Positions 9,181-27,146 of a DNA stretch of 64,000 nucleotides are shown here, piece after piece. The translations under genes were made by a program, and so were the position numbers. How positions within the stretch are numbered: the first letter of the stretch is position 1; each line of letters begins with the position of its first letter. Below the pieces are notes generated by a model that was not told the DNA's origin, did not search any database, and saw only the letters and a program-made list of their open reading frames with translations. The stretch is from an alpha proteobacterium AAP38 (GTDB lineage: Bacteria; Pseudomonadota; Alphaproteobacteria; Azospirillales; Azospirillaceae), in the NCBI GenBank assembly GCA_001296005.1, contig LJHR01000003.1, positions 124,001-188,000 of the forward strand. Reading direction: 5' to 3'.

Positions 9181-9197
9181 GTGTAATTCCCTTACAC
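9181..9197. promoter_or_regulatory. hexR operator: HexR-like operator, perfect inverted repeat
   Basis: GTGTAATTCCCTTACAC is a perfect inverted repeat with 6-bp arms (GTGTAA/TTACAC) and a 5-bp centre. It matches the published HexR site pattern TGTAA-N5-TTACA. Its position between zwf and the hexR-like gene fits autoregulation and control by KDPG. Confidence 0.7.
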
Positions 9198-9218
9198 GGC
9201 CCAGCCGGCTGGCTGATA

Positions 9219-9350
9219 CCATCTCCCGAAGAGTTTCGCTCTTCGGGAGATGGCGCGGCGGCGACCGCCGCCGCGCCGCCCATGCGGCGTAGTCAAGTCG
9301 CCGGATGGCGGCGCTGGCGATTGAGGTCGGTGATCGGTTGCGATCACCGA
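9219..9350. repeat. Structured intergenic repeat element, copy A
   Basis: Left hairpin with 15-bp perfect arms (9219-9233 and 9239-9253). A core follows with stems GGCGGC/GCCGCC (9257-9262, 9267-9272), CGCCGC/GCGGCG (9274-9279, 9284-9289) and CGCC/GGCG (9299-9302, 9307-9310), ending in TGAGG. Right hairpin has 10-bp arms TCGGTGATCG and CGATCACCGA (9327-9336, 9341-9350). The core aligns with copy B at 19329-19400. It fills the leader of the hexR-like gene. The rest of the 8911-9362 gap holds only the operators listed. Confidence 0.8.
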
Positions 9351-19111: not shown

Positions 19112-19297
19112 GTGACCGATTTCCTGACCGCACTGGCCCTGGTCTTTGTGATCGAGGGGCTTCTTTATGCCGTTGCGCCCAATTCCATGCGGGACATGGC
19201 CCAGCGCATTACCGGCATGGAGCCTGTCATGCTGCGCCGGATCGGCTTGGGTGCCGCCATCCTGGGCGTCGTGGCCTTGGCCGCGATCCGGGGCTAG
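19112..19297 (+). CDS. DUF2065 small membrane protein
   Basis: 61-residue protein with two hydrophobic helices (FLTALALVFVIEGLLYAVAP and IGLGAAILGVVALAAI) joined by a MRDMAQRITGMEP loop, the DUF2065/YjeT pattern. GTG at 19112 gives the usual length; a longer frame from 19058 adds a Pro/Arg-rich leader unlike the family. It lies between hflC and the Do protease, the standard neighbourhood of this family, suggesting a role with the HflKC-FtsH system. Its TAG stop touches the left hairpin of repeat copy B. Confidence 0.85.
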   Translation: MTDFLTALALVFVIEGLLYAVAPNSMRDMAQRITGMEPVMLRRIGLGAAILGVVALAAIRG

Positions 19298-19447
19298 AGC
19301 TGTTTTACGGTATACCGGAAACAGCTCCGGCAGCGACTGCTGCCGCGCCGCACGTGCGGCGTGAAGCCAAGCCAACGGACGTTGGCGCCGGCGCCTGAGG
19401 AAAACGAAAGGCTGTAGCGTGTTTCCAGACAACGGAAACACGCTACA
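19297..19447. repeat. Structured intergenic repeat element, copy B
   Basis: Left hairpin arms GAGCTGTTT/AAACAGCTC (19297-19305, 19319-19327) close over an inner CGGTATACCG. The core has stems GGCAGC/GCTGCC (19329-19334, 19339-19344), the 16-nt palindrome 19346-19361 and CAAC/GTTG (19373-19376, 19381-19384), ending in TGAGG. Right hairpin has 14-bp perfect arms (19413-19426, 19434-19447). The core matches copy A with paired substitutions. It fills most of the 19298-19619 gap; nothing else was seen there. Confidence 0.8.
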
Positions 19448-21280: not shown

Positions 21281-23321
<2,041 letters not shown>

Positions 23322-25901: not shown

Positions 25902-27146
25902 TTGTCCACGCAACAGACCCCGCCCAGCCCGCCGCCCCGCCTGCCCATTTCCGTCCTGACCGGGTTTTTGGGCAGCGGCAAGACCACGCTGCTGTCGCGC
26001 CTGATCCGCGACCCGGCCATGGTGCGCACCGCCGTCGTCATCAATGAATTTGGCGAGGTCGGGCTGGACCATCTGCTGGTGGAACAGTCGGACGAGAATA
26101 TGGTGCTGATGGATAGCGGCTGCCTGTGCTGCACCATCCGTTCCGACCTGGCCGAGACGCTGCGCGACCTCTACATGAAGCGTATGCGCGGCGAGATCCC
26201 GGAATTCGACCGGGTGGTGATCGAGACGACGGGTCTGGCCGATCCGGCGCCCATCCTGCACACGCTGATGACCGATCCGCTGATCGCCTCGCGCTTCCGT
26301 CTGGACGGGGTCGTGACCACCATCGACAGCGTCCATGGCATGGGCCAGTTGGACGAACACGAGGAAAGCCTGAAGCAGGCGGCGGTGGCCGACCGCGTGG
26401 TCCTGACCAAGACCGATCTGGCCGAACCGGCCCAGGTGGAGGCCCTGCGCCGCCGCCTGCATGACCTCAACCCCGGTGCGGTGCATGTCGACGCGCAGAA
26501 GGATCAGGGCCTGCCGGTCCTGCTGTTCGATGCGGGCCTGTACAATCCCAACACCAAGTCGCTGGACGTGCAGCGCTGGTTGAAGGCCGAGGCGTATGAG
26601 GGTGGTCATGATGATCACCATGATCATGACCACGGCCATTGCGACCACGACCATGGCCATTGCACCCATGACCATCATGAACATGGGCATGATCACGGCC
26701 ATGATCACCACGCCCATGACCATGGGCACGACCATCATGATCATGATCATAGCCATTGCGACCATGATCACGGCCACTGTGATCACGACCATGGGCATGG
26801 CCACGACCATCACCACCATGACGTCAACCGTCACAATGACAAGATCTCGTCCTTCGTGATCCGGTCGGAAAAGCCGCTGCCCTGGGACGGTCTGGTGACC
26901 TTCTTCGAGACGGTGGCCAAGGCGCAGGGCGACAATATCCTGCGCGTGAAGGGCCTGCTGAATGTCGAGGAGGCGGAACGCCCCATCGTCATCCACGGCG
27001 TGCAGCACCTGTTCCACCCGCCGGTCCAGCTGGACGCTTGGCCGACCGCCGACCAGAGCACCCGCATCGTCTTCATCGTCAAGGATTTGAAGCGCGAAAC
27101 GGTGCAGGAACTGTTCGACAGCGTGGTGAACGCCAAGGCGGCGTAA
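25902..27146 (+). CDS. COG0523/CobW-type G3E GTPase with His-rich metal-binding loop
   Basis: 414-residue GTPase, probably a zinc metallochaperone. Walker A is GFLGSGKTT, the family metal motif CLCC appears in DSGCLCCTIRSDL, and TKTDL gives guanine specificity. Residues ~236-306 are an extraordinarily His/Asp-rich run (HDHDHGHC-type units), and the C-terminal CobW domain carries LRVKGLLNVE and VIHGVQHLFHPP. TTG start is supported by GAGGAA 8 bases ahead. Next to zur it fits the ZigA/YeiR group induced by zinc shortage, rather than cobalamin synthesis. Confidence 0.9.
   Translation: MSTQQTPPSPPPRLPISVLTGFLGSGKTTLLSRLIRDPAMVRTAVVINEFGEVGLDHLLVEQSDENMVLMDSGCLCCTIRSDLAETLRDLYMKRMRGEIPEFDRVVIETTGLADPAPILHTLMTDPLIASRFRLDGVVTTIDSVHGMGQLDEHEESLKQAAVADRVVLTKTDLAEPAQVEALRRRLHDLNPGAVHVDAQKDQGLPVLLFDAGLYNPNTKSLDVQRWLKAEAYEGGHDDHHDHDHGHCDHDHGHCTHDHHEHGHDHGHDHHAHDHGHDHHDHDHSHCDHDHGHCDHDHGHGHDHHHHDVNRHNDKISSFVIRSEKPLPWDGLVTFFETVAKAQGDNILRVKGLLNVEEAERPIVIHGVQHLFHPPVQLDAWPTADQSTRIVFIVKDLKRETVQELFDSVVNAKAA
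26608..26823. repeat. Low-complexity CATGAC/CATGATCAC-type coding repeat
   Basis: In-gene repetitive tract of His and Asp codons (CAT/CAC with GAC/GAT) encoding the metal-binding loop of the GTPase. Irregular unit length and the coding frame show it is not a CRISPR array. Confidence 0.9.

Follow-up and report, generated by a model that had tools for sequence, protein, structure and literature searches.

A structured, covarying repeat core with palindromic arms in Niveispirillum and other Alphaproteobacteria: probable copies of a MITE-like mobile element

The 64-kb window (the whole stretch of DNA analysed) contains two copies of a structured intergenic repeat on its plus strand, copy A around 9219-9350 and copy B around 19297-19447, both lying where a preliminary description of this DNA had placed them. 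Copy A is located between the start of an rpiR-type regulator gene and a palindrome, TGTAATTCCCTTACA (9182-9196), which is identical in 7 of 7 aligned relatives, sits between that regulator gene and the divergent zwf (G6PD), and presumably resembles a HexR operator. Elsewhere the window carries a TPP riboswitch aptamer (21285-21414, 59.6 bits) and a tandem-like repeat of GACCATGGCCAC-type units (26592-26834) that probably codes for a His/Asp-rich metal-binding stretch. The riboswitch is the only gathering-score match to Rfam in the window and none falls on the repeat; sub-threshold matches to naRNA4 over copy B (E 0.26) and to Scr4115 over copy A (E 0.39) were taken as chance, as was one to a miRNA family in another locus (L252), away from the core.

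Each copy consists of a central core between two arms. At its left end (9214-9220) copy A has the triplet TGA (9214-9216) and then TACC (9217-9220), with which arms of the TACC/GGTA type begin; this terminus was defined on other copies. Its left arm hairpin (9217-9254) has 16 bp at 9219-9253 in the minimum free energy (MFE) fold, rather than the 15 bp claimed previously. The core (9256-9328; 78.7 bits with covariance model R1, built from 30 copies including A and B) is made up of hairpin 1 (9256-9273), hairpin 2 (9274-9289), the third stem GTC-AA-GTCGCC-GGAT-GGCGGC-GCT-GGC (9292-9318) and TTGAGG (9321-9326), and is followed by a right arm hairpin of 10 bp, TCGGTGATCG-GTTG-CGATCACCGA (9327-9350), in which the right terminus GGTA is not intact. 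By eye, kindred right arms, around GATCGGTNACGATC, are found in other genera. Copy B starts with TA (19295-19296) and the left arm hairpin GAGCTGTTTTACGG...GGAAACAGCTC (19297-19327); according to a home-made gene caller, a small upstream ORF ends in the TAG at 19295-19297. Its core (19328-19402, 93.8 bits) comprises hairpin 1 (19328-19345), hairpin 2 (19346-19361), the third stem GCC-AA-GCCAAC-GGAC-GTTGGC-GCC-GGC (19366-19392) and CTGAGG (19395-19400); an A-rich tail, AACGAAA, follows TGAGGAA at 19403-19409, as such tails do after many cores by eye, and the right arm is a 14-bp hairpin, TGTAGCGTGTTTCC...GGAAACACGCTACA (19413-19447).

The stem changes reported between the two copies, GGCGGC/GCCGCC in A for GGCAGC/GCTGCC in B and CGCC/GGCG for CAAC/GTTG, are as written, as are the retained loops GGAT (A) and GGAC (B). 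The shared core is real and measures 73-75 nt, while the arms, described as unrelated, are indeed modular but belong to recurring types, namely TA-GAGC.GTTTTCCGG hairpins and TACC hairpins. Both copies fold far more stably than shuffled sequence (copy A, -94 kcal/mol, z -8.2; copy B, -86.4 kcal/mol, z -7.9). Given that their single MFE folds disagree inside the core, where the first arm of hairpin 2 pairs with the third stem in A but not in B, the common structure rests on an alignment of many copies. The window taken alone also proves little: a pattern derived from the core matches only A (2 mismatches) and B (1 mismatch), but 15 of 100 shuffles also yield at least two matches, and it is the copies in the rest of the genome that decide the matter.

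In that genome, which belongs to Niveispirillum, a blast search with the core of B gave 40 matches at E <= 1e-5, and the covariance model, with 150 candidates scored, gave 116 matches at E <= 1 and 102 at E <= 1e-7; the genome has at least 102 copies, A and B included. Searching the parent genome and its relatives with such a model was the check proposed in the preliminary description, and in the resulting set of 40 genomes 21 match at E <= 0.001. These include all 11 Niveispirillum genomes searched, with 13 to at least 123 matches each, and 10 of 29 genera are represented; in six further genera of this family no core match reached this threshold. Of 385 alphaproteobacterial genomes sampled evenly, at least 25 match at E <= 1e-4, a lower bound given the stricter filters and the 12 candidates scored per genome. 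Scanning named genomes for an exact core pattern gave at least 116 stretches, and the covariance model, applied to 76 of these, gave 108 matches at E <= 0.1 among the matches listed, the weakest of which may be chance. The matches listed come from Nitrospirillum, relatives of Roseomonas, Telmatospirillum, Sphingomonadaceae, Erythrobacter, Nitratireductor, Jiella and others.

An alignment of 30 copies from the parent genome (28 distinct rows, the structure being drawn from the same sequences) identified two hairpins followed by GCC-AA-stem-GGAT-stem-GCC-GGC and TGAGG. Hairpin 1 has 7 bp and the loop GACT or GACC, hairpin 2 has 6-7 bp, and a linker leads to GCC-AA, a stem closed by the loop GGAT or GGAC, GCC-GGC and then YTGAGG. 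In the 28 distinct rows 98.0% of 600 stem cells are paired and 8 of 22 pairs change on both sides; two-sided changes fill 45 cells against a shuffled mean of 11, and drop to 0-3 cells when the partners are slid by 1-3 columns. The distant set (108 matches, 96 distinct rows, among the matches listed by the scan of named genomes) has 94.8% of 1777 cells paired, 18 of 21 pairs changing on both sides and 347 two-sided cells against 113 by shuffling, figures that are to be read with an alignment fitted to the covariance model and hence leaning towards the model structure. The third stem was also parsed by its neighbouring letters instead of by pairing, with arms of equal length only: it is readable in 263 of 312 distinct matches, with 97.6% Watson-Crick pairs against 58.8% (maximum 63.1%) when partners are shuffled, and there are 31 distinct perfect third stems among the parsed matches. 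The G+C content of the core is 67-87%. The preliminary description had tied its case to the existence of further copies that are not all near-identical, and many divergent copies with strong covariation were found.

Comparison with relatives indicates that whole elements are present at a site in one genome and missing in another. The segment comprising the arms and core of copy A, left arm hairpin included, is absent at the same place in Niveispirillum cyanobacteriorum TH16 (G006) and in two further relatives (G009 and G003), and the segment comprising the arms and core of copy B is absent at the same place in G006, G005 and G007. At the site of copy A, G007 retains a remnant without most of the core, and G006 reads GGTATCA where the right terminus would stand, so that A may be an older insertion that has since been lost there; missing copies can be deletions. 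In 328 kb of one contig (C23) compared with G006, more cores are found that only one of the two genomes has, and this holds both ways: copies at C23:49328 (111 bp) and C23:219047 (110 bp) are missing in G006, and segments of 121 and 118 bp with cores in G006 are missing in the parent genome. At least 11 copies nevertheless have a counterpart at the same site in G006, and at one locus (L094) 4 of 4 copies compared are common to the parent genome and G005; many copies are old. Other palindromic repeats of 85-195 bp also differ between the two genomes. The 85-114 bp segments at C23:6041, 107610, 126080 and 151148, which belong to a different palindromic repeat with TTATGCGACCTACG...CGTAGGTCGCATAAG and CGCATGCGAC, are absent in G006, and so are those at C23:45705, 92658 and 100361 (148-163 bp), whose ends are CCCTCACCCTCC-like and GGGAGGGTGAGGG; a segment of 195 bp at C23:326507 has CGTCATCCCGGCGAAAGCCGGGACCC...GTCACCGGGATGACG.

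The limits of the element are defined by the many similar copies of the metagenome-assembled genome C5coas_bin-2163, in which similarity starts at ATACC and stops at GGTAT. TACC and GGTA occur at fitting distances in 34 of 312 distinct matches, in some as an inverted repeat of up to 8 bp, and one or both motifs are missing in the other 278, A and B included: copy A has an intact left end only, and the ends of copy B are TA-GAGC and GC-TA. An identical triplet, always TNA, stands on both flanks in 19 of the 34 copies with two termini, a number reached in 0 of 10,000 permutations; 15 of the 34 lack matching triplets and several of the 19 are from one metagenome-assembled genome. In the arms of copy B's type (type I, TA-GAGC) the flanks show, by eye, only TA on both sides. 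TNA comprises TGA and TAA, both stop codons, as well as the reverse complements of these, and an insertion at such a stop would therefore restore the codon. Of the 19 copies, 9 have a flanking triplet that terminates a coding-like ORF, compared with 42 of 2184 control TNA triplets that do so, a contrast that is overstated since the controls lie partly inside genes; measured against 22%, a rough guess of ours for compact gene gaps, p = 0.013. In the copy at C23:219047-219156 (L176) the CCACTG of the outer left hairpin matches coding sequence, where G006 has CCGCTG, and it seems that part of this arm is pre-existing flank whose complement was brought by the insertion. A pattern search for solo GAGC hairpins gave 0 matches, with a pattern whose spacing misfits the known arms.

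The copies lie close to the ends of genes. Among 89 copies of the parent genome with both neighbours called (home-made gene caller, raw counts), 35 of the 60 whose right neighbour points at them are no further than 15 nt from its stop, 35 of the 49 with a co-directional left neighbour start 10-40 nt past its stop, and 60 of the 89 satisfy at least one of these two conditions. Gene orientation around the copies is mixed: 31 are (-,-), 29 (+,-), 20 (+,+) and 9 (-,+), copy A being one of the 9 between divergent genes. The surroundings of the core vary as well. In Niveispirillum and in C5coas_bin-2163 it has arms on one or both sides, and elsewhere it forms tandem arrays with a period of about 90-116 nt. 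Such arrays are also found in a phage-like contig of 47.9 kb (IMGVR_UViG_2708742415_000004, gene kinds judged by eye only), where 14 core pattern matches, several in arrays, fall in three stretches (L459, L473 and L474). Inverted pairs number 13 among the loci of other genera (206-252 nt; Sphingomonadaceae, Telmatospirillum and Nitrospirillum), and the parent genome has one, with a spacer of 93 nt (C23:82739 minus, 82909 plus). Adjacent array units, like orthologous copies, can differ by whole stems.

Taken together, this evidence suggests that A and B are probably copies of a mobile element that is MITE-like, non-autonomous and about 110-190 bp long, with a structured core and palindromic arms as its ends. 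The element is short, dispersed and of high copy number, differs by presence and absence between relatives, and has terminal inverted repeats and a target duplication (in 19 of the 34 TACC/GGTA copies). Under such a reading a transposase acting in trans would cut at the element ends; an insertion at a TGA or TAA stop codon would restore the codon, and the element would pack harmlessly against gene ends. The least certain step is the retention of the core, which may be due to its recognition as a folded single strand, of DNA or RNA, at a step of spread or of host tolerance. Recognition of the folded core would fit the occurrence of the same core with three different end architectures. A transposase that cuts at terminal inverted repeats, however, needs no folded core, which counts against the MITE-like reading.

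Candidates for the mobilising enzyme were sought in several ways, and no mobiliser was found among the families and loci searched, which counts against the MITE-like reading as well. The parent genome has 0 matches to PF13340 and 3 to PF01609, and IS5-type mobilisers of these two families yielded no partner, the matching insertion sequences carrying other terminal repeats. No ends matching the element were found in 59 loci of two transposase families, apart from a chance-like 9/12 in L432; one insertion sequence (L415/L431, G002:C52) has termini, TTAGAGTCCGTTGGGAAAGG, that resemble, without matching, the TA-GAG at which type I arms start. When the ORFs within 2.5 kb of distant-locus cores were clustered, no transposase was seen by eye among the 25 largest clusters, nor was a transposase ORF recognised by eye in the stretch between two inverted cores (L236). 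As to a name for the family, no Rfam family matched at its gathering score, and a literature search, mostly of open-access journals, recognised no paper describing the element. The bacterial MITEs RUP, Correia and ERIC are under 200 bp and intergenic, with terminal inverted repeats, target duplication and stable folds (PMC2229807, PMC10969869), and in the portions of these reviews consulted the element shares all of these features with them. It differs in that they are reviewed there as A+T-rich with mostly TA ends, while the element is G+C-rich and has a three-stem covarying core; one of its arm types also has TACC/GGTA ends and a TNA triplet.

A MITE-like mode of spread leaves the paired changes in the stems to be explained, and it is a real possibility, though short of probable, that they reflect a DNA process and not selection, either template switching in imperfect palindromes or conversion among copies, in which both arms change at once. 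Imperfect palindromes are known to be rewritten through template switching during replication (quasipalindrome correction). In agreement with this, two-sided changes far outnumber one-sided changes to standard pairs (347 against 14 cells in the distant set, among the matches listed, and 45 against 6 in the parent genome), and the swaps are mostly of G-C to C-G, which no G-U step can bridge, although a G+C-rich composition also favours such swaps. At an orthologous site (L090/L307) with flanks 95% and 93% identical, both arms of hairpin 2 are altered, and hairpin 1 and the third stem show lesser changes; the copy at C7:71478 and its counterpart in G005 differ on both sides of the third stem; and neighbouring units of tandem arrays differ mainly in hairpins 2 and 3. 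Three points weigh against rewriting: first, unpaired cells amount to 92 of 1777 in the distant set (among the matches listed) and 12 of 600 in the parent genome, so that mismatched intermediates exist. Second, the cells counted are sequences and not events. Third, the loops and linkers GCC-AAG, GGAT, CGCC and TGAGG are constant across orders, which rewriting alone does not explain.

It is also possible, if doubtful, that the core has a function as RNA, affecting the stability, processing or translation of messages from their untranslated ends, and that copies are kept for that role. The crowding of copies at stop codons, with 8 of 89 within 25 nt of a start, is consistent with this, as is an excess of G-U over A-C cells in the parent genome (34 against 15, p = 0.009), expected if the plus strand folds as RNA; in the distant set no such excess is seen (29 against 28, among the matches listed). 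In two Niveispirillum genomes and in Nitrospirillum a core occupies the gap preceding an EVE-domain gene, the EVE domain being shown for L090 only, but with so many copies the sites shared by two genera (EVE and flgB-flgC) can be chance. Mixed gene orientation, moreover, means that either strand would be transcribed. The same mixed orientation, the lack of a T-tract after the core in A or B, and the fact that covariation can also arise in DNA palindromes weaken the regulatory RNA and the terminator that had been suggested at the outset. With regard to the folding of the core, selection on RNA and a DNA process may both hold. A bolder proposal, which must be regarded as speculative and rather unlikely, is that the core is a self-standing signal, read only when folded and carried by different vehicles (TNA-targeting arms, TA-GAGC hairpins and REPIN-like inverted pairs), whose stems are periodically rewritten whole by templated, palindrome-directed synthesis, such that structure is inherited and sequence is not.

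Movement as a REP or REPIN, by a RAYT-type (Y1) transposase via single-stranded DNA, is improbable. The preliminary guess of a mobile REPIN-like unit stands with respect to mobility (about 100 dispersed copies, empty sites in relatives, the duplicated triplet and inverted pairs in other genera); high copy number, palindromic and extragenic character and tandem arrays are shared with REP, BIME and REPIN elements, as are, in some loci, the inverted pairs. The parent genome has one RAYT-like Y1 transposase ORF (L330:1468-1938), just above the PF01797 cut-off (24.5 against 23 bits), but the other 10 of the 11 Niveispirillum genomes have no PF01797 match, and no core lies within the 3.4 kb around this ORF or beside the other PF01797 matches scanned. 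A duplicated target triplet, here TNA, is not expected of Y1 enzymes. On chromosome C1 of G006 the orientation of the core tracks the sign of GC skew (22 to 13 against 7 to 20, p = 0.005; skew was sampled at 50 places on C1 and at 5 on each of C2 and C3, and 85 of 94 matches were used), yet the link is weaker over C1-C3 (p = 0.016), a runs test for C1 is at 0.08, the trend is the opposite in the first 0.84 Mb, and in the parent genome orientation does not cluster by contig (p = 0.24). Known REPs, as far as the account consulted goes, are 20-40 bp long with a GTAG or CGTC tag (PMC3733652), compared with 73-75 nt for the core, which is thus two to four times the length of a REP.

Two other repeat families invite comparison. 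The CIR of Caulobacter (CerM-associated intergenic repeat) is described, in the part of the review drawn on here, as about 110 bp long with GANTC at the terminal loop (PMC2229807); it resembles the element in its size, in its alphaproteobacterial host and in having two arms with a linker between them in place of a single long stem. GANTC, however, is found in only 3 of 312 cores, which sets the element apart from CIR as so described; within 45 nt of the core GANTC occurs to the right in 57 of 312 and to the left in 15 of 312. The BOX elements of Streptococcus are likewise modular, combining constant with variable modules, and are predicted to fold as RNA, but in the portion of their description consulted (PMC3049150) the constant modules are terminal, where those of the element are central, and the modules, host group and composition are others. 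In summary, the mode is MITE-like, arrays and, in some loci, pairs are shared with REPINs, and the element is separate both from RAYT-moved REPs, given the missing RAYT match in 10 of 11 genomes, and from CIR, given the rarity of GANTC. A static terminator or bidirectional terminator module is very improbable, since its position at gene ends, including 29 of 89 copies between convergent genes, is set against an often A-rich and not T-rich tail after the core (by eye), presence and absence between species, and the copies between divergent genes, copy A among them.

Read as a MITE-like element, the repeat would extend the repertoire of alphaproteobacterial genomes by a widespread family of measurable copy number, ends and target, with hundreds of copies at gene ends and no Rfam match. 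Hundreds of its stems, closed by constant loops and in some cases orthologous in position, constitute a natural data set on which selection on RNA can be weighed against template-directed repair of DNA palindromes, and an insertion that restores a stop codon would be a simple way for a mobile element to be harmless.
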